A stretch of DNA of 40,117 nucleotides, taken from an uncultured Eubacteriales bacterium. GTDB taxonomy: Bacteria; Bacillota; Clostridia; Oscillospirales; Oscillospiraceae. The translations under genes were made by a program, and so were the position numbers. The stretch is from NCBI GenBank assembly GCA_900319695.1, contig ONPN01000018.1:1-40117 (forward strand), read 5' to 3'. Shown piece by piece: positions 21,585-32,760 of the stretch. The notes under the pieces were generated by a model that searched no databases, was not told where the DNA came from, and was given only the letters and a program-made list of their open reading frames with translations. Each line of letters starts with the position of its first letter. Position 1 is the stretch's first letter.

Positions 21585-21845
21585 TCAATAATCGAAACCG
21601 GAGTGAAGAACCTCTTTTGTGTTCACGTCAATGATGTAATGATATTCATGCTCCCAGGTTTCAAAATCCACCTCATAGACGCCATGCTCGCGCTCCACAT
21701 CCACGTCGTAGACCTGGGACCGGGTCAGCCCGGCATCATTGAGGGCAATTTGTAAAATGGCATTGCGCCGATGGACAAGAAAACCGACGAGGGAGGCGAC
21801 AAGGATCAGAATGACGACAAGGCTGATGATGATTTTCTTTTTCAT
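21585..21845 (-). CDS. Small membrane-anchored PepSY-type protein
   Basis: This 86-residue protein has a basic N-terminus and a membrane helix (residues 4-24), then a PepSY-like domain: ALNDAGLTRSQVYDVDVE, YEVDFETWEHEYHYIIDVNTKEVL. PepSY domains are extracytoplasmic and are often inhibitors or chaperone-like partners of peptidases. The ATG at 21845 has AAGGAG 7 nt upstream; a frame extension to 21887 lacks a site. It is related in domain type to the double-glycine PepSY protein at 24453-24716 but uses a membrane anchor. A perfect palindrome (21881-21914) overlaps its promoter region. Confidence 0.75.
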   Translation of the reverse strand: MKKKIIISLVVILILVASLVGFLVHRRNAILQIALNDAGLTRSQVYDVDVEREHGVYEVDFETWEHEYHYIIDVNTKEVLHSGFDY

Positions 21846-21880
21846 TTCGTACTCCTTATAAAGAACATGGATAATACTAT

Positions 21881-21914
21881 TTTTCAATAAAAAGTCGACA
21901 CTTTTTATTGAAAA
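21881..21914. promoter_or_regulatory. perfect AT-rich palindrome upstream of the membrane PepSY gene
   Basis: TTTTCAATAAAAAGT (21881-21895), loop CGAC, and its exact complement (21900-21914). On the minus strand a TATTAT -10-like hexamer lies just inside its proximal edge, so it could be an operator covering the promoter. It could also end stray transcription in either direction, since the arms end in T/A runs. Confidence 0.5.
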
Positions 21915-22018: not shown

Positions 22019-22219
22019 TCAGTACATGACCTTGACCTGCTGCCCGGCCTTGAGGGCGTCAGGATTGGTGATGCTGTTCCACTTCATCAGCTGCTCCTTC
22101 GTGACATGGTACTTGTCGGCGATGGACTGGACGGTGTCGCCGGGCTGAACGAGATAGCGCAGAATGGTGCCGCCGGAGACCTGCTCCAGAGCGTCGTCAG
22201 CGAGTTTGGTCATAGACAT
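22019..22219 (-). CDS. Double-glycine-leader LysM protein
   Basis: The 66-residue protein consists of a 17-residue leader MSMTKLADDALEQVSGG and a single LysM domain (residues 20-65: RYLVQPGDTVQSIADKYHV, then LMKWNSITNPDALKAGQQVKV). The leader has the LExVxGG pattern recognised by C39 peptidase domains of bacteriocin-type ABC exporters and has no hydrophobic Sec core. The mature product would be a free 49-residue peptidoglycan-binding module. The ATG at 22219 has GGAGG 8 nt upstream; an in-frame TTG upstream overlaps that site. It is controlled by the triple heptamer promoter 22285-22329 and ends at its own terminator. It shares leader and promoter type with the genes at 24453 and 32497. Confidence 0.85.
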   Translation of the reverse strand: MSMTKLADDALEQVSGGTILRYLVQPGDTVQSIADKYHVTKEQLMKWNSITNPDALKAGQQVKVMY

Positions 22220-22284
22220 GGTAGTTACCTCCAAAAAATTGTTTTTATTTGTTTTATTTGTTTGTTTTCCCTGCTTGCGGGATC

Positions 22285-22329
22285 ATCTTATCACAGCTTC
22301 TGTCACAGAAGTGTCACACAGGTGTCAGA
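22285..22329 (-). promoter_or_regulatory. heptamer-repeat activator promoter A (LysM gene)
   Basis: Minus strand: TCTGACA (22323-22329), TGTGACA (22312-22318) and TGTGACA (22301-22307) at exact 11-bp pitch, then 10 nt, then TAAGAT (22285-22290). There is no -35 box; the promoter-proximal repeat occupies that place. This is the layout of OmpR/PhoB/SARP-type activator sites. Confidence 0.75.
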
Positions 22330-24373
22330 GCCAGTGGCCGCACACCGGGCACTGATCCATGGCCAGCGAGACCTCCGCGCCGCATTCCGGGCACCAGACG
22401 GCCTCGTAGGTGCTGCCGTCGAGGTTGAAGGAGACATGCGTGCCAAGATAGCCGTCGCTCTGGGAGAGAACGTAATTGTCCGTCTCGTAGCCGTAGACAC
22501 TTATGGCCGTGGAGAGCTCGTTCTCCCAGTAGTTGGAGCCTGCCCAGCCGCCCTGGTCGTAATAGTTGGAACCTGCCCAGCCGCCCTGGTCGTAGCTGCC
22601 GTAGATGTCGACCTGGTAGATGTTGGCGTTGCTCAGACTGCCGTTGTAGTATACGGTGCAGCGGCTGCCGTCGACGAAGGTGCCGCTCACATTGCAGAGC
22701 CAGCTGTCGGCAAAGACCTGCACGCCGTTGTCACAGTTGATTGCGTATCCGCCGCCGCCCTCGTAGGCGGTGCCGCTCACCGATCCGGAGCTCGGCTGCT
22801 CGTAGCCGTACACGTCGATCTGGTAGACCGTGGACTCGCTCGGGTAACCGCTATAGTACACCGTGCAGCTCGCCCCGTCAAGGACGCTGCCGGAGACCCA
22901 GTTGACGAGCCAGGCGCTCAGGTGCAGGCCTGTGCCGTTCTGCAGGACCACATACACGGTAGAGGCTGTGTCGCTGTAGATCGTACCGCTCATCGCGCCG
23001 CTGCTCGGCTGCGGGGCGGCCTTGTTGCCCTGAATGTAGCAGTAGGTGATGTTGCTGCCGTTCCAGGTGACCCAGGCGGGCGCGCCGTAGTAGAGGTCGC
23101 CCACCACGTCGCAGATGTCCCAGGAGATCGTGGCGTTGACGCCCTCAATGCTGAGCGTCACGGTGCTGAAGGCCCAGTCGACGACGGTGCCGGAGTAGGT
23201 GCCGCTGGGGATGGTCTTGGGCTGCGCCTTGCCGCTGACATACATGTAGGCCGTGGAAGTGCGCGCGGTCTGGCCCTTGTAGTAGAAGGTGCAGTAGGCG
23301 CCCCAATTGTTCATGTCCTTGTCCACGTTGCCGATGTTGAGCGTGGTGCTGTACTCACCGCTGATGTTGGCGCGCGGGAAGACGTTGCGGAAATTTGCCA
23401 CCGTGTACTCGCCGCCGTTGGGTGCGACCAGGGTCCAGCTCAGGGACTCAAAGGCGTTGGCACAGGAGACAAAGACCGCGGTCCCGCCTTCGTTCTTGCT
23501 CTCGTTGGTGGGGTTCTTCGTGACACTGAGGTAGAGGGGCTGGGTGTTCTGCGCGGGCGCGGCCGCAGAGGCGGGCGTCAGCGTCGGAACCGGCTCCGCA
23601 GGGGCCGCGGGCGCTGCGGGCTGATCCACAACTTCAATCTTCGGAACGGGGAAGACCTCAGTCGGTTCTTTCCGGCCGGTGAACACCGCGTAGCTGTCGG
23701 CCAGGCGGGACAGCTGTCCCAGGTCCTCGGCCTTGATCCAGTCGAAGCTGGTATTGCTTCTCTCGGCCCCGGCAAAGGCCTCAACGCCGGCGGCGTTGTA
23801 CTGCTCGGGGGAGATGGTGATGCCGTTTGCGTCCGTGTGAGAGACGTTTCTCACGCCGTTTTCGGAGACGGTGTGTTCCACAGCGTAGGCCGCGTAGCCG
23901 ACGACGCCGTCCTTGAGGTGGTAGGCGCTCTTGCTGGTGTAGACCTCACGCGGGGAGAGCATGATGTTGTCGTAGAACATATACGACCAGGTGTCGGTCA
24001 CGGGGTCGTGATAGGTGTCGGTGCTGTCCGTGAGGATGTCGGGGAAGGACTCCTCGGGGTCCTTGTCAAGGGTGCACTCGTTCAGCGTACTGCCGTCCGC
24101 GCTGACCTCCCAGACCTTGAGGTTTGCCGAGCGGTCAATCTTATGCTGGTGCGCCGCGATGAACTCCAGGCAGCCGTTGTGGTTGAGATCTGCGACGGTG
24201 TAATACCAGGTGCCGCCGTCGTTCTGCTTGAGGGTATCCAGCTTCGACTGGATGAGGCCAAGCTGCGCGTCAATGTCGGGCGTCTCCGCGAGGGCCGCGC
24301 CGCTTCCGCAGACGGCCAGGGAAAACAGCATCGCCGCCGTCAGAAGAAAGCACAGGAAGCTCTTCTTGTTCAT
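22325..24373 (-). CDS. Large secreted Ig-like repeat protein with C-terminal zinc ribbon
   Basis: The 682-residue protein has a Sec signal (1-30, ending AALA), an N-terminal globular domain (about 31-245, with VADLNHNGCLEFIAA, an EF-hand-like DxNxNG calcium loop), a Pro/Ala linker (245-280), an Ig-like domain (about 283-385, SVTKNPTNESKNEGG to STAYMYV), then beta-rich repeats (two copies of about 65 residues, each with SGT, CTVYY, IYQ/VYQ, DVYG/DIYG), two copies of YDQGGWAGSNY, and finally a four-Cys zinc ribbon (C661, C664, C675, C678). The Ig-like domain is shared with the lipoprotein at 28454. A rubredoxin-like zinc knuckle on an exported protein is odd. It follows the PepSY gene by 79 bp and likely uses promoter B. 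The function is unknown; a surface or adhesion role is inferred. Confidence 0.8.
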   Translation of the reverse strand: MNKKSFLCFLLTAAMLFSLAVCGSGAALAETPDIDAQLGLIQSKLDTLKQNDGGTWYYTVADLNHNGCLEFIAAHQHKIDRSANLKVWEVSADGSTLNECTLDKDPEESFPDILTDSTDTYHDPVTDTWSYMFYDNIMLSPREVYTSKSAYHLKDGVVGYAAYAVEHTVSENGVRNVSHTDANGITISPEQYNAAGVEAFAGAERSNTSFDWIKAEDLGQLSRLADSYAVFTGRKEPTEVFPVPKIEVVDQPAAPAAPAEPVPTLTPASAAAPAQNTQPLYLSVTKNPTNESKNEGGTAVFVSCANAFESLSWTLVAPNGGEYTVANFRNVFPRANISGEYSTTLNIGNVDKDMNNWGAYCTFYYKGQTARTSTAYMYVSGKAQPKTIPSGTYSGTVVDWAFSTVTLSIEGVNATISWDICDVVGDLYYGAPAWVTWNGSNITYCYIQGNKAAPQPSSGAMSGTIYSDTASTVYVVLQNGTGLHLSAWLVNWVSGSVLDGASCTVYYSGYPSESTVYQIDVYGYEQPSSGSVSGTAYEGGGGYAINCDNGVQVFADSWLCNVSGTFVDGSRCTVYYNGSLSNANIYQVDIYGSYDQGGWAGSNYYDQGGWAGSNYWENELSTAISVYGYETDNYVLSQSDGYLGTHVSFNLDGSTYEAVWCPECGAEVSLAMDQCPVCGHWL
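22530..22594. repeat. 33-bp tandem repeat, two copies, inside the secreted protein gene
   Basis: Two near-identical 33-bp units encode the repeated peptide YDQGGWAGSNY. The unit is a multiple of three, so copy number can change without breaking the frame. Confidence 0.8.
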
Positions 24374-24452
24374 AATCTTCTCCTCTCAAATTCTCTTCCA
24401 TGCAGGCCTGCCGGGGGCGCTCAGGCTCCCGGCAAGCTCCTGTGAAATTCAA

Positions 24453-24716
24453 TCAGTCCCATTCCTTCTTGTACTTGAGGACATTGCCGTTGCCAGCGTC
24501 GATGTCGAACTCATACTCGAAGCCGTCCTTATAGAACGAGACCTCGAAGATCTGCCGGCCATGCTCGAAATCGGGTTCGACCTTTTTGATGAAGTCAAGC
24601 TGTTCTTTCTTGAGACCGGCCTTCTCCAGCGCCTTGGCCAGTGCCTCCTCCTGCGTGATGGTGCCGCCTGCCACGGTTTCCAGTTCCTGATCGTTAATCT
24701 TGTCGATGCTGCTCAT
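24453..24716 (-). CDS. Double-glycine-leader PepSY protein
   Basis: This 87-residue protein has an 18-residue leader MSSIDKINDQELETVAGG followed by a PepSY domain (residues 21-85: EEALAKALEKAGL, IKKVEPDFEHGRQIFEVSFYK, FDIDAGNGNVLKYKKEWD). The leader aligns with those of the LysM and SH3 proteins (DQELExVxGG with 22019 and 32497) and lacks a Sec core, so export by a peptidase-containing ABC transporter with cleavage after GG is predicted. A GAAAGGAG site precedes the ATG. It lies between the regulator gene (24811) and the large secreted protein and has promoter B directly upstream. PepSY domains often inhibit or guide peptidases, so it might act on surface proteases; this is inference. Confidence 0.85.
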   Translation of the reverse strand: MSSIDKINDQELETVAGGTITQEEALAKALEKAGLKKEQLDFIKKVEPDFEHGRQIFEVSFYKDGFEYEFDIDAGNGNVLKYKKEWD

Positions 24717-24773
24717 GATGAAATCTCCTTTCGTATATCGTGAAGTTTTTTGTTTTCTCTTGCTTACGGGCCT

Positions 24774-24807
24774 ATCATAACACAGCTTTTCTCACACAAC
24801 TGTCACA
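24774..24807 (-). promoter_or_regulatory. heptamer-repeat activator promoter B (PepSY gene)
   Basis: Minus strand: TGTGACA (24801-24807) and TGTGAGA (24790-24796), 11-bp pitch, 10 nt, then TATGAT (24774-24779). It lies in the gap just after the stop of the regulator gene. It aligns closely with promoter A even beyond the core (AAGCTGTG and, further on, GCAAG..AAAACAAA). Confidence 0.75.
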
Positions 24808-24810
24808 CAG

Positions 24811-25617
24811 TCACTCTTCCATGGCGTAACTGATCTCGTCCAGCTCCGCATGCATATACTCCGGCCAGCTGTATTGGTTCATGTAGTCGCCGAGGTAGTG
24901 ATATTTGGAGTCGCCCTTGTTTGCAAGCCAGTCGTAGAGATCGCACTCGATCCTGTCCGCGGCGATGGCAAGGCTGCCGCGCTGCTTGAGGATGATCCCG
25001 TTCAGGCGCAGGCGGGTGAAGGTGTTCTGCAGGTCCTGGCGCAGGTTGCTGAGATAGGAGGCCTTTTTGTCGGGGTCGCCGTCGTCCTCCCAGAGGCAGG
25101 CGATGATCTCGCCGTTCGTGGTCTGCGCGCCCCGGTTATTGACCAGCACGGCCACAAGCTCCTTGGTGCGCGAGTATTTGAAGGCCACGGGCTTGCCGTC
25201 CACAAAGAGCTCAAAATTGCCGAAGGTCTGCGCGAAGACGCGCCTCTGCTTCTTCTGTACCGCAGGATGGCGGAGGTCCTCCAGCTCCCGCTTCATCAGC
25301 GCCTGAGACGGAGGGGAGAGAAGGTAGCCGCTCGCGTGCTGACGCATGGCGTCAAAGCTCCTGTCCGTGTTCTCTGAGAGATAGATCAGATTGACGAGAG
25401 GGTAGAGCTCCTGGAGATACTGGCCGAGATCCAGTCCGTTCAGCTCCGGCAGCTCCGTCTCCAGCACGGCGACGTCGATCTCCTTTTCGCGGGCCGCCGC
25501 CAGAGCGGGCAGGCCGTTTTCAAAGGACAGCAGCTCCGCCTCCGGGGCGAGACCTGTCACCATCTGACCGACGGTCTGCAGAGATTCTGCGTCCTTGAGT
25601 ACGTTCAGAATGGTCAT
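24811..25617 (-). CDS. SARP/OmpR-type regulator with degenerate receiver domain
   Basis: The 268-residue protein starts with a CheY-like receiver fold (1-115) whose key residues are changed: the usual acidic pair is replaced (ILNVLKD), the phospho-acceptor Asp is Glu53 (VAVLETELPELNGLDL), and the conserved Lys is Ser101 (YLLSPPS). It is followed by an OmpR-type winged helix (about 132-225: FGNFELFVDGKPVAFKYSRTKELVAVL, CLWEDDGD, LSNLRQDLQ) and a short helical tail as in SARP activators. It is therefore likely phosphorylation-independent, perhaps constitutively active or controlled by a partner. Its ATG overlaps the stop of the upstream gene by four bases. Winged helices of this class bind heptamer repeats at 11-bp pitch, the pattern found at promoters A to D. 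Confidence 0.85.
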   Translation of the reverse strand: MTILNVLKDAESLQTVGQMVTGLAPEAELLSFENGLPALAAAREKEIDVAVLETELPELNGLDLGQYLQELYPLVNLIYLSENTDRSFDAMRQHASGYLLSPPSQALMKRELEDLRHPAVQKKQRRVFAQTFGNFELFVDGKPVAFKYSRTKELVAVLVNNRGAQTTNGEIIACLWEDDGDPDKKASYLSNLRQDLQNTFTRLRLNGIILKQRGSLAIAADRIECDLYDWLANKGDSKYHYLGDYMNQYSWPEYMHAELDEISYAMEE

Positions 25618-26123
25618 GTCTCGTCTCCTCTGACGGGCAGGGCGGAATCGGACACCCTGCGGACCTTTTGATGCTGCCGCTCTTCACTGCTCATCGTCAG
25701 GGGGTTGAGTCCTCCGACGAGGAGCATCTTGTCCCCGTGCGCGGCGGCCTCATGCAGGGGCCCGGCGCGCAGGTCCGCGATGACCAGGGCGGCAAAGCGG
25801 TCATAGTTATCCTCGTCGATCACAGGGAAGTGGTGCTGCATACGATACCAGTGCTTGGGGTCGAAGCGGAGCTCCCCGACATAGAGGCGATCAGCGGTGG
25901 CGGCCACGTCCTCGGGGCTCGCCTTCTGGCCCGCCACCGCGCCGATGTCGTCGCAGAAGAGCATGGCGTAGGCGCGCAGGATCTGGTCGCGGACGGTGTA
26001 GGTCCTGCCGTTGCGCTCCACGGACGTGTCCATAATTCTATAGTATGTATCCTGCGCCTCGTCGCTCTCCTCAAAACGGAGGATAGCCTCATAGAAGCGC
26101 CGGTCGATCAATGACTGTGTCAT
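25614..26123 (-). CDS. Uncharacterised protein coupled to the SARP-type regulator
   Basis: This 169-residue soluble protein is rich in charged residues, probably mostly helical in the first 90 residues (FYEAILRFEESDEAQDTYYRIMD), with HWYRMQHHFPVIDEDNYDRFAALVIADLRAG in the centre and a disordered tail. I recognise no family. It overlaps the regulator gene by ATGA, so the two are made together; it may be the partner that controls the degenerate receiver. An AAGGAG site precedes the ATG. Its promoter has a good TATAAT (26153-26158) but no -35 box and no heptamer repeats, so it is not autoregulated in the same way as A to D. Confidence 0.7.
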   Translation of the reverse strand: MTQSLIDRRFYEAILRFEESDEAQDTYYRIMDTSVERNGRTYTVRDQILRAYAMLFCDDIGAVAGQKASPEDVAATADRLYVGELRFDPKHWYRMQHHFPVIDEDNYDRFAALVIADLRAGPLHEAAAHGDKMLLVGGLNPLTMSSEERQHQKVRRVSDSALPVRGDET

Positions 26124-26196
26124 GCGAAATCTCCTTGCTGTGTGCTGCGCTCATTATAACACATTTCTTTCCGGCCTCATACCCATTTAAGAAAAA

Positions 26197-26363
26197 TTAA
26201 GGCAATACCGCATAATGCGGCAAGAGCAGATTCCGAGAAAAACCGGGTTCTGATGAAGGCAGTTTTTCGCTGGAATACTTTGTGTATTGCAAGAAAAAGT
26301 GACGAGATCAGGGCACGGTTTTTCCGGAAGATGCCGCAGGCGTATTGTGCGGTGTTGCCTTAA
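26197..26363. mobile_element. MITE-like element, copy 1 (167 bp)
   Basis: Terminal inverted repeats of 20 bp (TTAAGGCAATACCGCATAAT and ATTGTGCGGTGTTGCCTTAA, 18 of 20 matching) bound a non-coding, hairpin-rich body. TTAA at both ends may be a target duplication. Related copies are at 32828-32911 and 38937-39016. There is no transposase in the window, so it would move in trans. Confidence 0.7.
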
Positions 26364-26398
26364 GCATCATTCGGCGAGAGCGAATGCGCGGGGCTGCC

Positions 26399-27019
26399 TT
26401 ACTGTCCCGTCAGCCGCTTGGCGTAGCGCCCGTCCCCTTGCAGGACAAAGCCCATTTTCTCAAGATACTGCGCGTGCTCCGGACTGCCGCCGGGGCAGGA
26501 GAGTTCCCTGATCCCATGGGCGGGGAGCTGCGCGTAGAGAAAAGCGCCGACGGAGCTGTCCCGAAAGTCGGGGGAGGTATAGTCCAGGATCGCGTCAAAA
26601 CGCCCGCCGTCCCGTCGGCCCAGGAGCAGGCCCGCAGCCCGGTCGTCATAGAAGACGGCCCAGCCCTCTGCGGCCTGTGCGCCTTCGGGCGTGAGGGCGG
26701 GAAAGTAGCGCTCGATGTCGTGCCGGTACTTGGCGACAAACCAGGCGGTGAAGCCCTCCCCGACGCCAAGCGGCTGGATCTCGTAGCTTTTTCCGGAGGC
26801 ACGGCGGAGCTTGAACAGATGGTAGAGGTTGACGCACACCAGACAGCCGTTGAGCAGGGCCGTCGGATAGGAGCGGATCAGGATCGCGTAGGTCGAGAAG
26901 ACGGCGCTGCCGATCAGGTTGATCACACGCAGCCGCACCACCGAGGTCATAAGCATGGATACCAGAACCAGGAACGAGCCCAGATATCCGAACAGTTCCA
27001 GCATCATGGCACCGCTCAT
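26399..27019 (-). CDS. YgjV-like membrane domain fused to a GNAT-like domain
   Basis: The 206-residue protein begins with about three membrane helices (residues 5-75: LELFGYLGSFLVLVSMLMTS, INLIGSAVFSTYAILIRSY, LLNGCLVCVNLYHLFKL), matching the YgjV family of inner-membrane proteins. The cytoplasmic remainder (about 85-206) resembles the second half of an N-acetyltransferase fold: AAGLLLGRR, ILDYTSPDFRDSSVG, YLEKMGFV. The acetyl-CoA loop is not clearly intact, so activity is uncertain. An AAGGAGG site lies 7 nt before the ATG at 27019. It stands alone: the MITE is downstream and a hairpin array upstream. Confidence 0.75.
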   Translation of the reverse strand: MSGAMMLELFGYLGSFLVLVSMLMTSVVRLRVINLIGSAVFSTYAILIRSYPTALLNGCLVCVNLYHLFKLRRASGKSYEIQPLGVGEGFTAWFVAKYRHDIERYFPALTPEGAQAAEGWAVFYDDRAAGLLLGRRDGGRFDAILDYTSPDFRDSSVGAFLYAQLPAHGIRELSCPGGSPEHAQYLEKMGFVLQGDGRYAKRLTGQ

Positions 27020-27110
27020 TTCATCGCCTCCTTGTCATAGTGCGGTAATTACAAAAATTATATCATACTTGTCCGGAGAGCGCCAGTCCTGTTGTAAAAA
27101 GTTTCGGACT

Positions 27111-27383
27111 GAACATGGAAGGGAGGTCGCGGCCGCTTCATAAGTTCTCCGGGGAGTTCAGAGGGGCCTCAGCCCCTCTGATTTTTCGCCTCGCAAGGCG
27201 AAAAATCAATTTAATCCGTTTTTTCCGGGGGCGTGTACCTCGGAAAAAACTCTTCTCAGCCTGCAAGTGTGCGAGCGTCCCCCACAAGCGAGTGCGCGCA
27301 GCAGGCTGCAATCCTTCTCGTTTCACAAAAATGCCCAATGGCATTTTTGTGAAACGAACGTGGAAGGGAGGTCGCGACCGCTT
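27111..27383. repeat. hairpin array bounded by 28-bp direct repeats
   Basis: The 28-bp sequence at 27111-27138 recurs at 27356-27383 with two differences. Between them lie five inverted repeats: 27159-27180 (9-bp arms), 27180-27207 (12-bp arms, perfect), 27218-27250 (10-bp arms), 27258-27307 (7-bp arms) and 27319-27356 (17-bp arms, perfect, CGTTTCACAAAAATGCC). No reading frame is credible here. The block fills most of the 443-bp gap between divergent genes and ends at the EamA promoter. Confidence 0.7.
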
Positions 27384-27410
27384 GTGTTTTGAGGCGAAGT
27401 GTGTTATACT
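27382..27410 (+). promoter_or_regulatory. sigma-A promoter of the EamA transporter gene
   Basis: TTGTGT, 17-bp spacer, TATACT, about 53 bp before the start at 27463. The -35 box touches the end of the second 28-bp repeat. Confidence 0.65.
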
Positions 27411-27462
27411 GCGCCGCGCGGTTTTGGTGGAGCCGAAAACTACGAAAGAGTGGGGGAACGGA

Positions 27463-28359
27463 ATGAGCGGAGTATCCGAACGAAAAGGCCTGCTGGCGGC
27501 CACGATCTGCCAGCTCTTCTGGGGCCTGAGCTTTATGGCCTCGCGCATCGCCCTGAATACCGCGCCCGTGATTGTGCTGCTCAGCCACCGTTTTCTCACG
27601 GCCTTTCTCGTGATGAGTCTCTTCGCCGTGACAGGCATCGCCGACTGCCGTCTGCGGGAAAAGCCGATCCGGCCGCTGCTGATCCTGGGACTCATGGAGC
27701 CGGTGATCTACTTCTTCGGTGAACAGTACGGCATTCTCCATTCGACGACGATCTTCTCCGGCGTTATGATCTCCATGATCCCAATCTTCAGCATTTTGGC
27801 TGCCGTGCCGGTTTTAAAGGAGAAGCCCACCATGGGGCAGACGCTGTTCAGCCTTCTTTCTCTGTGCGGTGTGATCGGCATCGGCCTTCTCAACCGCAGC
27901 AGCGGGACGCTGGACTGGATCGGCGTGCTGGCGCTGCTGGTGGCGGTCTTCTCCGCCGTGGTCTATACGCTGCTCAACCGCGGCATCTCCCGGAGCTACA
28001 CTTCCTTTGAGCGCAGCTACAGCATGCTCGGGATCGGGGCCGTTGTCTTCACCGCCCTGGCGCTTATCTCCGTGCGCGGGGATATGGCGGCCTATGTCCG
28101 ACCTCTGCGCTCGCCGGACTACACGGCGGCGGTGCTGTATCTGGCAATTTTGTGCTCCGTGGTCTGCTATTTTCTTTCAAGCTACAGCCTGTCCGTGCTC
28201 AGCGTGGCGCGGGCGACGGTCTTCGCCAATCTCACCACCGCGGTATCGGTTCTCGCCGGGGCGCTCATCCTGCATGAGCCTCTGCCTCCGCTCGGTGCGC
28301 TGTGCTGTGTATTGATCCTGACCGGCATCTACGGCGTGCAGCGCACGGCAAATACTTGA
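27463..28359 (+). CDS. EamA/DMT-family drug-metabolite transporter
   Basis: This 298-residue inner-membrane protein has ten predicted helices in two EamA repeats (about 8-138 and 148-285). Typical EamA features are the opening LFWGLSFMASRIAL and the second-repeat end SLSVLSVARATVFANLTTAVSVLAGALILHEPL. These transporters export amino acids, nucleotide precursors or other metabolites; the substrate is not predictable. The ATG at 27463 has a G-rich weak ribosome site (GGGGGAACGG); a long in-frame extension upstream runs through the hairpin array and is not credible. The stop overlaps the -35 box of the next gene's promoter. Confidence 0.88.
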   Translation: MSGVSERKGLLAATICQLFWGLSFMASRIALNTAPVIVLLSHRFLTAFLVMSLFAVTGIADCRLREKPIRPLLILGLMEPVIYFFGEQYGILHSTTIFSGVMISMIPIFSILAAVPVLKEKPTMGQTLFSLLSLCGVIGIGLLNRSSGTLDWIGVLALLVAVFSAVVYTLLNRGISRSYTSFERSYSMLGIGAVVFTALALISVRGDMAAYVRPLRSPDYTAAVLYLAILCSVVCYFLSSYSLSVLSVARATVFANLTTAVSVLAGALILHEPLPPLGALCCVLILTGIYGVQRTANT

Positions 28360-28384
28360 ACGGGACGCCTGTCTATGGTATTAT
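28356..28384 (+). promoter_or_regulatory. sigma-A promoter of the Ig-like lipoprotein gene
   Basis: TTGAAC, 17-bp spacer, TATTAT. Unlike its neighbours at 29879 and 32433 it has a -35 box and no TGTGACA heptamers. Confidence 0.6.
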
Positions 28385-28453
28385 CAGTAAAGACTGAAAC
28401 CTTTTGCCAGATCTATTCGTCGTATGAATGAATCGAACAGTCGAGGTGATACC

Positions 28454-29875
28454 ATGAATACGAAACGCGCTCTCTGTATTCTTTTCATTGTGGTTTTGGC
28501 GTTCTCCCTCTGCGGCTGTCAGGAAAAGACCGTGACGCCCATCCCGGCGGGAGGCGCCCAGACGCAGCCGAGCCCGACGCCCGTGGACATCTTTCTGACC
28601 ACGCCGGAGCCCACGCCCGCTGTCATCCTGACACCCGCCCCAATGCAGACCGCCGCCCCGATACAGACGGCGGCCCCGGTCTGGACGGCAGCGCCCGTAC
28701 AGACGGCAGCCCCGGTGCAGACGGCCGCGCCTTTCCAGATGCCGGTCTCGACGCCCGCCCAGACCCAGACGAGGACCAACCTGCCTGTTATCACCAAGAA
28801 CCCCACAGACGAGATCGTGGAGGCGGGCGGCTCCTGCTGGTTCGTGGCCAAGTATGACAACGCCAAATGGGCGGTCTGGCACTTTGTGAGCCCCAGCGGG
28901 ACGGACTATACCTACGACCAGATCAACACGGTTTTCCCGGGGCTGGAGGTCACCAAGGGCTACGCCAGCACGACGCAGCTCAAGAACATCCCGGCCGACA
29001 TGAACGGCTGGCGGACCTACTGCCGCTTCAGCAATGACTACGGCTCGGTCGATACGAGCTCCGCCGCCATCACCGTCAAGGGCTCGAGCGCGCCGACGGG
29101 CTTCGCGGCGATCCCGGCAAACACCACGGCGGCGGCGTCCGCACCCGGCGCGCCCACTGTGACCAAGAGCCCCACGGATGAGACCGTGGAGCCGGGCGGC
29201 TCCTGCTGGTTCGTGGCCAAGTATGAAAACGCCGTCTATGCCGAGTGGCACTTCGTCAGTCCCGACGGATTGATGGATGTGGACTACAGCCGGATCAACA
29301 GCCTTTTCCCGGGGCTGGAGGTCACCAAGGGCTACGCCAGCACGACGCAGCTCAAGAACATCCCGGCTGACATGAACGGCTGGAAGGCCTACTGCCTGTT
29401 CACCAACAATATCGGCACCACCAAGAGCGGCGCGGCGACCATCTATGTCAGGAGCGCGGCAAAGACGACCCAGACCCAGACACCGCCGAACCTGAGACAG
29501 ACCGGCACGGGCCAAACCACCTTTAATCAGACGCAGACTTTGACAAGCGCCGACCCCTATGCGGGCACCTATGTCTGCGGCCGCGCCGCCATGATTATCC
29601 GGGGCGGCCCGCAGGTCTACAGCGTGGAGGTCAACTGGGGCAGCAGCTATGCCGAGCACAGCACCTGGAACTTCTCGGGAAGCTTCGGCTCCAACGGCGT
29701 TCTGAACTACACCGGCGCCAGCCGCATCAACGTCCTGTATACCGACCAGACCCACCACAGCGACACCCTGGTCTACAGCGACGGCAGCGGCAGCCTGGTT
29801 TGGTCCAACGGCGTGATCATCTGGATCGACAACAAGGAAAACGCCGCGGACGGGATGAGCTTTGCCAAGACCTGA
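28454..29875 (+). CDS. Ig-like repeat lipoprotein
   Basis: The 473-residue protein has a lipoprotein signal with lipobox SLCGC (Cys23 or so), a Pro/Thr/Ala/Gln stalk containing repeated QTAAPV units (about 55-110), and two Ig-like domains of about 100 residues: TKNPTDEIVEAGGSCWFVAKY, and TKSPTDETVEPGGSCWFVAKY. A Thr/Gln linker leads to a C-terminal beta domain (about 370-473, DPYAGTYVCGRAAMIIRGG). The Ig-like domain (KNPT, GG, W..VSP.G..YT, FP, STTQLKNIPADMN.W..YC.F) also occurs once in the secreted protein at 22325. It is anchored to the outer face of the membrane and reaches into the wall. The ATG at 28454 has GAGGTG 7 nt upstream. A binding or adhesion role is inferred. Confidence 0.82.
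   Translation: MNTKRALCILFIVVLAFSLCGCQEKTVTPIPAGGAQTQPSPTPVDIFLTTPEPTPAVILTPAPMQTAAPIQTAAPVWTAAPVQTAAPVQTAAPFQMPVSTPAQTQTRTNLPVITKNPTDEIVEAGGSCWFVAKYDNAKWAVWHFVSPSGTDYTYDQINTVFPGLEVTKGYASTTQLKNIPADMNGWRTYCRFSNDYGSVDTSSAAITVKGSSAPTGFAAIPANTTAAASAPGAPTVTKSPTDETVEPGGSCWFVAKYENAVYAEWHFVSPDGLMDVDYSRINSLFPGLEVTKGYASTTQLKNIPADMNGWKAYCLFTNNIGTTKSGAATIYVRSAAKTTQTQTPPNLRQTGTGQTTFNQTQTLTSADPYAGTYVCGRAAMIIRGGPQVYSVEVNWGSSYAEHSTWNFSGSFGSNGVLNYTGASRINVLYTDQTHHSDTLVYSDGSGSLVWSNGVIIWIDNKENAADGMSFAKT
28932..29383 (+). repeat. pair of 80-bp near-identical direct repeats within the lipoprotein gene
   Basis: 28932-29011 and 29304-29383 differ at one base. They encode FPGLEVTKGYASTTQLKNIP and following residues in each Ig-like domain, while the flanking domain sequence has diverged. 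This points to recent gene conversion between the two domains. Confidence 0.85.
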
Positions 29876-29878
29876 GGG

Positions 29879-29912
29879 TGTGACACTTCTGTGACATCGC
29901 GTTTGCTATGCT
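29879..29912 (+). promoter_or_regulatory. heptamer-repeat activator promoter C (DUF975 gene)
   Basis: TGTGACA (29879-29885) and TGTGACA (29890-29896), both perfect, 11-bp pitch; 10 nt later TATGCT (29907-29912). No -35 box. It starts 4 bp after the lipoprotein stop codon. Confidence 0.78.
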
Positions 29913-29976
29913 TGCCTCACAAAGCATGAGACAACAAAATCAAACATAAATATAAAAATATAAAGGAGGATTTATC

Positions 29977-30666
29977 ATGTGGACAATTGCAGAAATCAAA
30001 GAGAGAGGAAAGAGAGCCTTTAAGGGCAACTACTGGCTGTGCGTACTGGTGGCGTTCCTAATGGCAGTTTTCACTACCGGCGCCTCCGCCGCGACCTCGC
30101 GCAAGACCCAGGAGATCGACATCGAGGGAACCTTCGGCAGCATGAGCCCGGAGGATCAGCTCGCTGTCGCGCTGGTTGTCCTCGGCGTGATCGGCGTCGT
30201 TCTGGTGATCGGCCTGCTGATCCGCGTCTTTGTGGCCAACCCCATCAACGTCGGCGGCAATGCCTTCTTCATGAGCAACGTCGATGAGACCCCCGCGCCC
30301 TTCGGCATGATCAAGCTCGGCTTCCAGCACTACTGGCACAACTTTGCGACCCTGTTTCTCCGTGACCTCTACCTCTGCCTGTGGTCGCTGCTGTTCATCG
30401 TCCCCGGCATCATCAAGGGCTACTCCTACCGCATGGTGCCCTACATCCTCGCGGATGAACCCGAGCTCTCCGCCAACGAGGTCATCACCAAATCCCGCCA
30501 GATGATGGACGGCAACAAGTGGCAGGCCTTCCTGCTGGATCTCTCCTTCATCGGCTGGATCCTGCTCGGCATCCTGACCCTCGGCCTCGGCCTCATCTTC
30601 TGGACGGCCCCCTACATGTACAATGCCAACGCCGCCCTCTACCTCAAGCTGAGAGACGAGGCGTAA
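29977..30666 (+). CDS. DUF975 family integral membrane protein
   Basis: This 229-residue protein starts with the family signature MWTIAEIKERGKRAFKGNYW and has about five hydrophobic helices, including VVLGVIGVVLVIGLLIRVFV and LCLWSLLFIVPGIIKGYSYRMVPYILAD, the second being the conserved core of DUF975. The segment NPINVGGNAFF and the amphipathic LSANEVITKSRQMMDGNKW match the family. Function is unknown; members often accompany stress or secretion genes in Firmicutes. An AAAGGAGG site precedes the ATG. Its promoter (C) is of the shared heptamer type, which links it to the double-glycine protein genes. It is closed by a strong terminator. Confidence 0.85.
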   Translation: MWTIAEIKERGKRAFKGNYWLCVLVAFLMAVFTTGASAATSRKTQEIDIEGTFGSMSPEDQLAVALVVLGVIGVVLVIGLLIRVFVANPINVGGNAFFMSNVDETPAPFGMIKLGFQHYWHNFATLFLRDLYLCLWSLLFIVPGIIKGYSYRMVPYILADEPELSANEVITKSRQMMDGNKWQAFLLDLSFIGWILLGILTLGLGLIFWTAPYMYNANAALYLKLRDEA

Positions 30667-30691
30667 GCACAGCGCAGTGAAAGGAAAACAG

Positions 30692-30730
30692 CGCCCGCCG
30701 CATCGGAACATGATGCGGCGGGCGTTTTTT
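30692..30730 (+). terminator. rho-independent terminator after the DUF975 gene
   Basis: A 13-bp GC-rich stem (CGCCCGCCGCATC and complement, 7-nt loop) is followed by TTTTTT. Confidence 0.9.
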
Positions 30731-30782
30731 GTTCAGCGCAAAATACGGCTTCCCATTGCTTTTGAGCCGCTTGTTGAGTATA

Positions 30783-30839
30783 CTTATACTGGTCTCCCAT
30801 AAAACGGCTTAAAGCCGCTTTATAGGAGACCAGTATAAG
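30783..30839. repeat. 57-bp imperfect palindrome
   Basis: Arms of 28 bp around a single central A pair with only two mismatches, beginning CTTATACTGGTCTCC. It lies in the 266-bp gap between the DUF975 terminator and the HD-APH gene. The length exceeds that of an ordinary terminator and no T tail follows; it may be a repeat element or a large operator. The rest of the gap shows nothing clear. Confidence 0.75.
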
Positions 30840-30932
30840 CGGGGCAAGCGCGAAACATGGCAAATTGCTCCCCATAAATTCGAGAATTTATTGAGAAGCG
30901 ATAAAAAAACCTACAGGGGAGGAAAACGCGCC

Positions 30933-32411
30933 ATGATGAATCGACTGGAAGAGGCCATAATTTACGCGACGATCATGCACCAGGGGAAGATTCGCAAGTT
31001 CAGAGGCAGCCCGTATATCCTGCATCCGATCGAGGTGGCGCAGATCCTGTCTACCATCACGGATGACGAAGAGGTCATCACAGCCGGTATTCTGCACGAT
31101 ATTGTGGAGGCGACGGACGGTACGCTCGAGGAGATCAAAAAAAGATTCGGAGAGAGAGTGGCCTTGCTGGTCAATTCAGACTCGGAATTGGAATATGCGG
31201 AGGAAGAGCGCAGCGCCAGTTGGAAACGGCGCAAGGAGGAGTCTTTGCTGCTGCTGAAGAACAGCCAGGATATCGGCGTACAGATGCTGTGGCTTGCGGA
31301 TACCCTTTCAAACATTCGCTCCCTTGCCGGGATTTATTCCGAGCGCGGCGACGCCCTGTGGGAGGCGCTCAATCAGCGCGACCCCGACATACAGCGCTGG
31401 TATTATCAGAGCGTCGCGGAGCTGCTGGAGCTCCAGCTCAACAAGACGGGCGCGTTTAAGGAACTGGTCAAGCACATCAACTTCATGTGGCCGGGAACCT
31501 TTGATTCGGACAAGGCCAGATATAAAAAATATAAAGAGGTCTCTGTCGAGGGCTGTATGCTCATCGGCCGCGGCGCCAAGGGAGAGGTCTACCGCTACGA
31601 CGACGAGCTGGTCATCAAGGTCTTCAACCGGCGCAACACCTATCACGACGTGGAGCGGGAGATCGCCCTCAGCCGCAAGGCGTTTGTGATGGGTATCCCG
31701 ACCGCGATCTCCTTCGGCATCGTCTCCGTCGGCAATCGCTACGGGGCCATGTATGAGCTGGTGGATTCGGACACCATTTCCAAATACATCGCGGCAAACC
31801 CCGGACAGGTGGAGACTTATGCAAAGATGATGGCGGAGCTGGCCCACACGATCCACGCCATTGAGGTGACGCCGGAGGACGGCTTCCCGGATGCCGCTGA
31901 GAAGCTGCGCGATTATATCAGGAGCGGACTTGAATATGACAACGAAGCCCTCGCCGAAAAGTGCATGCGGCTGGTCGACACGCTTCCCGCGGCGAATACC
32001 ATGATCCACGGCGATTTTCATACCAACAATGTGTTCCTGCAGAGGGGAGAACCCCTGCTGATCGACATGGACCGCCTCTCTATGGGACACCCCATGGCAG
32101 AGATCTGTTCCCTGTATTATTTCTATGTGGTCCTGGGGGAGGATGATCCCACGGTCGTTGAGGACTTCATGGGCTTTTCCTATGATATTGCCAGACAGTT
32201 CTTCGACCTTTTCCTGCGATATTATCTGGATACGGAGGATGAAAGCAGACTGCGGGATGTGAAGGATAAAGCGGCTGTTTTGGCGTATATGCGCATGATA
32301 CACAGAATACGCAAAAAGGGAAAGCCCTCCGGAAAAGAAAAGAGAGCAATTGAACGCTGTGTGGAAAAGATCGGAGAGCTTGCCGCCCGCCTGGACAGCC
32401 TCGCGTTTTGA
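30933..32411 (+). CDS. HD-domain / aminoglycoside phosphotransferase-like fusion protein
   Basis: The 492-residue cytoplasmic protein has two parts. Residues 1-170 resemble the HD hydrolase domain of RelA/SpoT enzymes (GSPYILHPIEVAQIL with His31, AGILHDIVEAT with His55-Asp56), which removes pyrophosphate from (p)ppGpp. Residues about 205-490 are an APH/choline-kinase-type kinase: glycine loop LIGRGAKGEVYRY with VIKVF, catalytic loop IHGDFHTNNVFL, metal Asp in LIDMDRLSMGHP. No synthetase, TGS or ACT domain is present. The fusion suggests a nucleotide-signal-linked small-molecule kinase; the substrate is unknown. The ATG at 30933 follows GGGGAGG by 10 nt (a second ATG is adjacent). It is not obviously in an operon. 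Confidence 0.85.
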   Translation: MMNRLEEAIIYATIMHQGKIRKFRGSPYILHPIEVAQILSTITDDEEVITAGILHDIVEATDGTLEEIKKRFGERVALLVNSDSELEYAEEERSASWKRRKEESLLLLKNSQDIGVQMLWLADTLSNIRSLAGIYSERGDALWEALNQRDPDIQRWYYQSVAELLELQLNKTGAFKELVKHINFMWPGTFDSDKARYKKYKEVSVEGCMLIGRGAKGEVYRYDDELVIKVFNRRNTYHDVEREIALSRKAFVMGIPTAISFGIVSVGNRYGAMYELVDSDTISKYIAANPGQVETYAKMMAELAHTIHAIEVTPEDGFPDAAEKLRDYIRSGLEYDNEALAEKCMRLVDTLPAANTMIHGDFHTNNVFLQRGEPLLIDMDRLSMGHPMAEICSLYYFYVVLGEDDPTVVEDFMGFSYDIARQFFDLFLRYYLDTEDESRLRDVKDKAAVLAYMRMIHRIRKKGKPSGKEKRAIERCVEKIGELAARLDSLAF

Positions 32412-32432
32412 AGGTGCTTTTGATAAGTATTG

Positions 32433-32466
32433 TGTGTTGCTTTTGTGACAGAAGCAGTGCTATAGT
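32433..32466 (+). promoter_or_regulatory. heptamer-repeat activator promoter D (SH3 gene)
   Basis: TGTGTTG (32433-32439, weak) and TGTGACA (32444-32450, perfect), 11-bp pitch; 10 nt later TATAGT (32461-32466). The motif continues as GAAGC after the second repeat, as in promoter A. Confidence 0.7.
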
Positions 32467-32496
32467 GTAATCACAAAATTGAAAGGAGACAGAACC

Positions 32497-32760
32497 ATGT
32501 CTGACAAAGAAATCATCATCGATCAGGAGCTTGAAAACGTAAGCGGCGGCGATTATCGCATCGTCAACACCGGAGACTACAGAAACGCAGCGATCAGAAG
32601 CGAACCCAGTCTGAGCGCCGCGGTCATCGGCTCGCTTCCGAACGGCACAGCCGCGAATACGACGGGGAGATTTGTGCGCGCGGACGGCCGCAACTGGGCC
32701 GAGATCAACTACCCGATGTGGGGATGGATCAAAGGAAGCATCCTCGGATATGACTACTGA
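32497..32760 (+). CDS. Double-glycine-leader SH3-type protein
   Basis: This 87-residue protein has an 18-residue leader MSDKEIIIDQELENVSGG followed by a bacterial SH3-like domain (residues 20-85: YRIVNTGDYRNAAIRSEPSL, VIGSLPNGTAANTTGRFVRAD, WAEINYPMWGWIKGSILG). The RSEPSLSAAVIGSLPNG pattern is the usual SH3b start, and the W-I-K end closes the barrel. SH3b domains bind peptidoglycan peptides. The leader lacks a Sec core and matches the leaders at 22019 and 24453, so peptidase-ABC export is predicted. An AAAGGAG site lies 9 nt before the ATG at 32497. Promoter D precedes it and a strong terminator follows, so it is monocistronic. Confidence 0.87.
   Translation: MSDKEIIIDQELENVSGGDYRIVNTGDYRNAAIRSEPSLSAAVIGSLPNGTAANTTGRFVRADGRNWAEINYPMWGWIKGSILGYDY

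Follow-up and report, generated by a model that had tools for sequence, protein, structure and literature searches.

The 40,117-nucleotide stretch analyzed here ("the window") is contig C39 (ONPN01000018.1, assembly GCA_900319695.1) of an uncultured Oscillospiraceae bacterium, whose 2.82-Mb genome consists of 96 contigs and is 79.3% complete. It encodes three small proteins in which a short leader ending in a double glycine (GG) precedes a LysM, a PepSY, and an SH3 domain, respectively. We computed the leaders and domains, the exporters of the genome, the synteny of the locus, a shared operator, and the co-occurrence of exporter and leader-bearing genes in related genomes. The results suggest that the three proteins are likely cargo of an NHLM-type exporter, an ATP-binding cassette (ABC) transporter with a C39 peptidase domain, under a shared regulon. 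Export by this route, considered separately, is very probable from the sequence comparisons. The findings are best read as a regulated secretome that bypasses Sec and consists of small proteins of the wall-binding and inhibitor types.

GG-leader proteins and exporters of the genome

The three proteins were assigned as follows:
22019-22219, minus strand: small protein with a GG leader and a LysM domain (Pfam, 2e-15); matches the leader pattern, and its homologs adjoin the exporter in relatives
24453-24716, minus strand: small protein with a GG leader and a PepSY domain (Pfam, 3.3e-9); related PepSY proteins with GG leaders exist
32497-32760, plus strand: small protein with a GG leader and an SH3_3 domain (Pfam, 1.8e-6)

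The first-pass annotation, made from the sequence letters, had described three leader-bearing proteins, each with a different domain and none with a Sec signal. All three proved to be real, and their strands, which it did not give, are those listed above; reading the LysM and PepSY coordinates on the plus strand gave unrelated peptides. The leaders are MSMTKLADDALEQVSGG before LysM, MSSIDKINDQELETVAGG before PepSY, and MSDKEIIIDQELENVSGG before SH3, and Pfam confirmed a different domain behind each GG (LysM at residues 22-64, PepSY at 20-82, SH3_3 at 30-80). No Sec-like hydrophobic stretch was found in the first 40 residues of the three proteins by hydropathy, in agreement with the annotation: the highest 15-residue mean in this region was -0.43 to 1.09 among the 13 GG-leader proteins of the genome, and 3.37 and 2.47 in two window proteins with a hydrophobic N-terminus. 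The three proteins scored below the curated bacteriocin families (best match 14.0 bits, CTB family, cut-off 32), and the NHLP and Nif11 precursor families were absent among their curated-family matches.

A search of the genome with a strict DNA pattern of the leader produced nine matches, compared with none in the reversed control, and all nine were short leader-bearing open reading frames (ORFs), although they were read without a length limit. Since the pattern was built from the window leaders, the three window matches are not independent evidence; the other six are. A wider pattern gave 90 matches against 22 in the reversed control, and the 40 that were fetched yielded three further leader genes. 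Together with a CW_7 protein on contig C92, the search suggested at the outset, for further small proteins in which this leader precedes different domains, thus recovered at least 13 in this genome, a lower bound because about 35 of the 90 wide matches were left unread. Their mature parts are 39-89 residues long. According to Pfam, they carry LysM in proteins on C39, C91, and C42, SH3 and PepSY on C39, and two CW_7 repeats on C92. The proteins on C28 and C32 are SH3-like by eye only, with no SH3 match in Pfam, those on C50, C94, and C89 are zinc-ribbon-like (mostly below Pfam cut-offs), and the mature parts of the C48 protein and of a second C32 protein are unclassified.

Other C39 exporters bind the leader via hydrophobic residues at positions -4, -7, -12, and -15, according to the accessible portions of PMC6959990 and PMC7018657. 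Substrates were defined here by hydrophobic residues at these positions in a short leader at the N-terminus that ends in GG or, sometimes, in GA or GS. The leader searches fixed -4, -7, and GG and left -12 and -15 free. The three window leaders fit the rule at -4, -7, and -12. Position -12 was hydrophobic in 12 of 13 leaders of the own genome, 68 of 68 from relatives, and 42 of 45 from the named exporter loci (the best 80, mostly from metagenome-assembled genomes of gut and rumen Clostridia), compared with 6 of 15 control leaders, which were pattern matches deep within long ORFs. In the own genome, -15 was hydrophobic in 10 of 13 leaders, and the neighboring positions -13, -14, and -16 were so in 3/13, 1/13, and 1/11.

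Two full C39-peptidase ABC exporters were found in the genome, on contigs C92 and C49, so that the absence of any such transporter, named beforehand as evidence against export, does not apply. The C92 exporter is an NHLM-type pair in which both ABC1 (927.9 bits, cut-off 853.3) and ABC2 (728 bits, cut-off 709.4) exceed the curated cut-offs, and it is most likely the exporter used in this genome. A GG-leader gene with two CW_7 repeats (CW_7, 6.1e-30) lies directly upstream of it. The HlyD-like 139-aa protein of this contig remained under its curated cut-off (27 bits versus 156.2, model positions 1-48 only), and no tailoring enzyme was seen by eye in the C92 stretch read. The Cys, His, and Asp residues of the C39 domain, the catalytic residues of such peptidases, were invariant across nine aligned domains. 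The C49 exporter scored below the ABC1 cut-off (819.8 versus 853.3 bits) and belongs to a lanthipeptide-type cluster (L015, G000:C49:16000-33689) with a LanM-like enzyme (298.3 bits, cut-off 304), a radical S-adenosylmethionine methyltransferase-like protein of the kind acting on ribosomally synthesized and post-translationally modified peptides, and a long-leader, lanthipeptide-like GG precursor. A weak third C39 match was located on C81.

Exporter and cargo in related genomes

The comparison covered 60 genomes, all incomplete drafts, of which 37 belong to the genus and 23 lie outside it. The exporter ABC1 was above the cut-off in 20 of the 37 genus genomes, and every one of these 20 contained one or more GG-leader genes. 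In 19 of them the genes were recovered with the strict pattern after the matches had been read; the twentieth, G024, has a LysM gene with a VQGG leader and a PepSY gene with a VVGG leader. No intact GG-leader gene was found in the 17 genus genomes without an exporter over the cut-off, as covered by the strict pattern, to which leaders ending in VQGG or VVGG are invisible, and by PepSY and SH3 searches. Many strict matches in relatives fell within long or antisense ORFs and were dropped, including those read in exporter-less genomes; two of three matches in G006, the second in G044, the second in G050, and the third in G039 were left unread. Fisher's test for 19/20 versus 0/17 gave p = 1e-9, uncorrected for kinship. 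Homologs of the window SH3 protein were detected in four other genomes, each exporter-bearing.

An interrupted gene was also observed: G028 (57% complete, no exporter) has a PepSY copy with a GG leader and an in-frame stop. Its interpretation as a mark of exporter loss was dropped because interrupted copies also occur in the exporter-bearing G031 and G033. Outside the genus, G041 has an exporter just below the cut-off and GG-leader zinc-ribbon-like proteins with longer leaders.

We read 24 exporter loci, 23 from relatives and that on C92. LysM and/or CW_7 genes with GG leaders were present in 17 of them (15 in the first reading, and G024 and G031, confirmed by Pfam); domain calls per locus were made partly by eye and were consistent with the Pfam results. 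In addition, a PepSY gene with a GG leader lies near the exporter in L244 (5.7e-14) and an SH3 gene with a GG leader near that in L250 (2.4e-8). Thus, all three domain types of the window occur beside such exporters somewhere.

Part of the window itself resembles these loci. The genes from 26123 to 22019 follow the order 169-aa gene, regulator, PepSY protein with GG leader, 682-aa protein, LysM protein with GG leader; the members not listed above are:
25614-26123, minus strand: 169-aa protein, no significant Pfam family
24811-25617, minus strand: OmpR/PhoB-like response regulator (Response_reg, 8.2e-8), adjoining the PepSY gene on the same strand
22325-24373, minus strand: 682-aa protein with a hydrophobic N-terminus; an Ig-like repeat was noted by eye, without support from Pfam

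In relatives, this block is found again next to the exporter, where different GG-leader cargo usually takes the position of PepSY. Regulator and 169-aa gene were found together in 15 of the 105 exporter loci searched, where the latter always accompanies the former; L119 and L222 look like one place, and in L135 the pair is on the opposite strand from the exporter. Homologs of the 682-aa protein were present in 11 of the 15 loci and in four further loci without the regulator. The match indicates that the window contains what is elsewhere the cargo half of an exporter locus. The earlier statement that the window contains no exporter is correct, yet the description of single genes spread over 10 kb needed revision: some of the genes share an operator, and part of the window is syntenic with the exporter locus of relatives.

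The spectrum of cargo was determined by scanning 120 GG-leader proteins from the own genome, related genomes, and named loci (120 of 126 entries; the doubtful L151, L280:1913-2404, and four L283 entries were left out). Because the cargo filter accepted 25-200 mature residues, longer cargo is missed in this tally. Pfam detected LysM in 32 proteins, CW_7 in 12, SH3_3 in 4, and PepSY in 3, with scattered zinc ribbons and one Bacteriocin_IIc match (E ≤ 0.001). No classical wall hydrolase or peptidase was present among the 25 of 32 Pfam families listed, and no NHLP or Nif11 family among the 25 NCBIfam families listed. The first-pass annotation had called the proteins wall-acting; wall-binding or inhibitor-type describes them better, as no classical hydrolase or peptidase was seen among the families listed.

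Several cargo proteins differed from the common types. A beta-rich GG-leader family of about 107-124 residues (L128:14663-15082, L228:1166-2072, L226:4035-4955) is encoded near exporters, often with the operator described below; its predicted structure (predicted local distance difference test, pLDDT, 66.9) had no PDB match at E ≤ 0.001. G015 (L141-L144) contains arrays of GG-leader proteins with near-identical ALNDELLDKVSGG-type leaders and short, unrelated, mostly Cys-rich mature parts, and in L135:12325-12702 (minus strand) a LysM protein has two tandem GG-leader-like segments before its domain.

A shared operator and its candidate regulator

A direct repeat with an 11-bp period, TGTGACA-N4-TGTGACA, precedes the LysM and PepSY genes and was designated the putative operator. 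Matches in the window, and a further gene behind one of them, include:
22301-22318, minus strand: perfect operator match, 81 bp upstream of the LysM start codon
22312-22329, minus strand: overlapping second operator match, 1 mismatch
24790-24807, minus strand: operator with one mismatch, 73 bp upstream of the PepSY start codon
29879-29896, plus strand: perfect operator match, 80 bp upstream of the DUF975 gene
32433-32450, plus strand: degenerate operator with three mismatches, 46 bp upstream of the SH3 start codon; weak alone
29977-30666, plus strand: DUF975 membrane protein (1.9e-28) without a GG leader, its gene being a probable member of the operator regulon

At up to three mismatches, the window contains 10 matches in six places, counting both strands, versus 1.59 expected, and 0 of 100 shuffles reached 10. 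Four perfect operators exist genome-wide. Three precede the LysM gene, the DUF975 gene, and the GG-leader gene of C48; behind the fourth, on C10, no gene was seen. With up to two mismatches, an operator precedes 24 of 68 cargo genes in relatives (shuffled expectation 0.00), 3 of 13 in the own genome, and 7 of 45 in the named loci. The exporter loci contain 27 distinct operators at this threshold (overlaps merged by hand), 24 of them before GG-leader genes; of the other three, two (in G007 and G034) lie before the gene of a small membrane protein located upstream of the exporter, and one lies before a 682-aa protein homolog. The leader scan had failed to recover 11 of these 24 GG-leader genes; thus, the operator predicted cargo beyond the reach of that scan. 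Own cargo genes such as those on C50 and C91 have ordinary-looking promoters by eye, which indicates that the operator is common to only part of the cargo.

Two further sites in the own genome were noted. A 1-mismatch operator (L335, G000:C94:32612-32629) precedes a short ORF that is similar to the C-terminus of beta-rich family members and may be a remnant. Behind a 2-mismatch operator (L336, G000:C14:6086-6103) lies an ORF of 35 residues that carries a GG-like leader overlooked by the leader scan and may represent a fourteenth cargo gene.

The regulator adjoining the PepSY gene has a receiver domain above the Pfam cut-off (Response_reg), and its Trans_reg_C match is below (14.9 versus 26.2). 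The best Foldseek matches of its predicted structure (pLDDT 89.7, predicted template modeling score 0.54) were DrrB, PrrA, and PhoP, with E values of 2e-11 to 4e-10. The model is most similar to OmpR/PhoB-type regulators, and the protein is read as an atypical regulator of this type with a receiver and a predicted winged-helix effector domain. Regulators of this type often bind direct repeats. The conserved phospho-acceptor Asp was not found; the position, assigned by eye, is Glu in the window regulator, and seven aligned close homologs have D in four, S in two, and A in one. This variability suggests that a kinase is perhaps unneeded and that the regulator may be activated without one.

Close homologs of the regulator (≥68% identity, E < 1e-120) were found in 13 of the 60 genomes, with distant paralogs more widely spread. 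All 13 are among the 20 exporter-bearing genus genomes, compared with 0 of 17 other genus genomes and 0 of 23 outside the genus, and in nine of them regulator and exporter share a contig. Operators with up to two mismatches precede 27 of 65 cargo genes in regulator-bearing genomes versus 0 of 16 in exporter-bearing genomes without the regulator. Across whole genomes, sites with up to one mismatch number 88 in 13/13 genomes with the regulator (reversed control, 4) and 10 in 7/47 genomes without it (control, 8); the gene behind the site was checked for part of the 88. Given these sequence associations, the link between regulator and operator is probable, and the regulator is a candidate activator. 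Four of the 10 sites are in G009 (65% complete; L306, G009:C27), three of them on a contig encoding a tandem PepSY protein; neither exporter nor regulator was found in this partial genome.

Proposed mechanism, alternatives, and known systems

We infer cleavage, export, DNA binding, wall binding, and role as follows. Binding of the regulator to the TGTGACA direct repeats, which are spaced by one helical turn, would activate the cargo genes; in some relatives it would also turn on the operon of the exporter. The cargo leader, about 15-22 residues long, would dock on the C39 domain via its hydrophobic -4, -7, -12, and -15 positions, and the domain would cut behind Gly-Gly, after which the short chain would be pumped out and fold outside. 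The LysM, CW_7, and SH3 modules would bind peptidoglycan without cutting it, and PepSY may act as an inhibitor-type module, the likeliest net effect being a non-covalent wall coat that shields the producer, e.g., from lytic enzymes and proteases.

We favor this protective role tentatively, as a possible one, because the recognized modules bind or inhibit and do not cut. The same property, and the lack of any toxin or hydrolase domain among the Pfam families listed, makes it rather unlikely that the route delivers offensive cargo, that is, bacteriocin-like proteins with modules aimed at the walls of rivals, the unclassified or Cys-rich cargo being the active part. Such a function would agree with the classical use of GG leaders and C39 exporters for bacteriocins (in the accessible portions of PMC6959990 and PMC7018657), with the single Bacteriocin_IIc match, and with the many different cargo proteins per genome, as in the G015 arrays. 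Ordinary envelope upkeep or surface display, serving neither defense nor attack, is unlikely but, like attack, a serious rival; the modules might, for example, guide wall hydrolases or join the large secreted proteins of this block in forming a surface layer. It could account for the two large proteins with a hydrophobic N-terminus among the cargo genes, one of which is the 682-aa protein that recurs with the regulator, and for the perfect operator before the DUF975 gene, but the exporter is missing from 17 of 37 genus genomes and is thus dispensable in the group. Finally, the GG ending might be no export signal, the proteins being cytoplasmic or handled by a non-C39 system. Zinc-ribbon cargo would be at home in the cytoplasm; however, the fit at -12, the co-occurrence and synteny with the exporter, and the extracellular-acting domains make this very improbable.

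Several observations weigh against a common export route and regulon. The rpoB tree, which omits five genus genomes without usable rpoB (G005, G007, G020, G025, G033), is poorly resolved and offers three independent pairs on well-supported branches, which cannot reach significance; on average 2.4 of the 3 agree with co-occurrence, and none is opposite. No GG-leader gene was seen in 4 of the 24 exporter loci (L118, L122, L130, L133; L122 is only 7.8 kb); one of the four belongs to the top-scoring exporter (1050.7 bits), from G037 outside the genus, whose genome has no true leader match. Only 23 of the 80 named loci have a candidate passing the cargo filter. LysM and CW_7 cargo is concentrated in the closest exporters and is not general to NHLM exporters. 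Outside the own genome, -15 is hydrophobic in only 21/63 and 13/42 leaders. As for regulation, the regulator is missing from 7 of the 20 genus genomes with an exporter, no operator at up to two mismatches lies in the C92 exporter locus, only 5 of 13 own cargo genes have one even at three, and genome-wide matches at up to two mismatches number 17, with 9 for the reversed pattern. Cargo of the zinc-ribbon and Cys-rich kinds does not suit a wall coat.

The C92 subunits exceed the cut-offs for ABC1 and ABC2 of the NHLM/NHLP export systems (TIGR03794, TIGR03796, TIGR03797; Haft et al., 2010, PMC2887384). The substrates of those systems, as described in the accessible part of that paper, are precursors of modified peptides with long nitrile-hydratase- or Nif11-like leaders encoded beside tailoring enzymes, whereas here the leaders have 15-22 residues and the cargo consists of wall-binding domains; the word "LysM" is absent from its main text. 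PCAT1-CtA, ComAB/BlpAB, and RtgAB share the leader rule, the GG cut site, and the C39-ABC exporter with the present system, and RtgAB also has coregulated cargo (PMC6959990, PMC7018657, in the portions accessible). Their cargo is described there as signaling or competition peptides, whereas here it includes LysM, CW_7, SH3, and PepSY domains, and the regulator is OmpR/PhoB-like in place of an Rgg-type one. Sec-exported proteins such as autolysins and phage lysins have the same LysM, SH3, and CW_7 Pfam domains; in contrast, the domains here stand alone, behind a GG leader and not a Sec signal, with no catalytic domain. Known proteins with these domains usually have them joined to a catalytic domain. 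PMC11322243, PMC3482391, and PMC5524665 were considered as precedents, and none is one, to judge from the portions available. The literature searched, which left most subscription papers outside, showed no case of a C39 exporter with LysM, CW_7, SH3, or PepSY cargo. Both GG leaders and this class of exporter are already known; the wall-binding cargo, the regulator, and the operator are new as far as this literature extends.

Bacteriocins and signal peptides are the main cargo for which GG-leader export is known. The chances are about even that some gut Clostridia use a peptide-bacteriocin exporter as a dedicated, transcriptionally controlled, general pathway, independent of Sec, for a modular set of small proteins of wall-binding, inhibitor, and metal-binding type. 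A common leader and, in many species, a common operator would unite the set, and a small domain of any kind could enter it by acquiring both. If GG export carries folded wall-binding domains, surface proteins would leave the cell by an unusual, non-standard route, and Sec-based prediction would overlook some of the surface proteins of gut Clostridia; a practical way to list these would be to combine leader and operator. The cargo range of C39 exporters is directly testable with such small, well-known domains.

Two neighboring genes of the window were also noted. The minus-strand gene at 21585-21887, adjoining the LysM gene, encodes a second PepSY-like protein (22.7 bits versus a Pfam cut-off of 24) with a hydrophobic N-terminus, so that related PepSY domains seem to leave the cell by two routes within 3 kb. 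Directly upstream of the SH3 gene, at 30891-32411 on the plus strand, an HD-domain protein is fused to an APH-type kinase domain.

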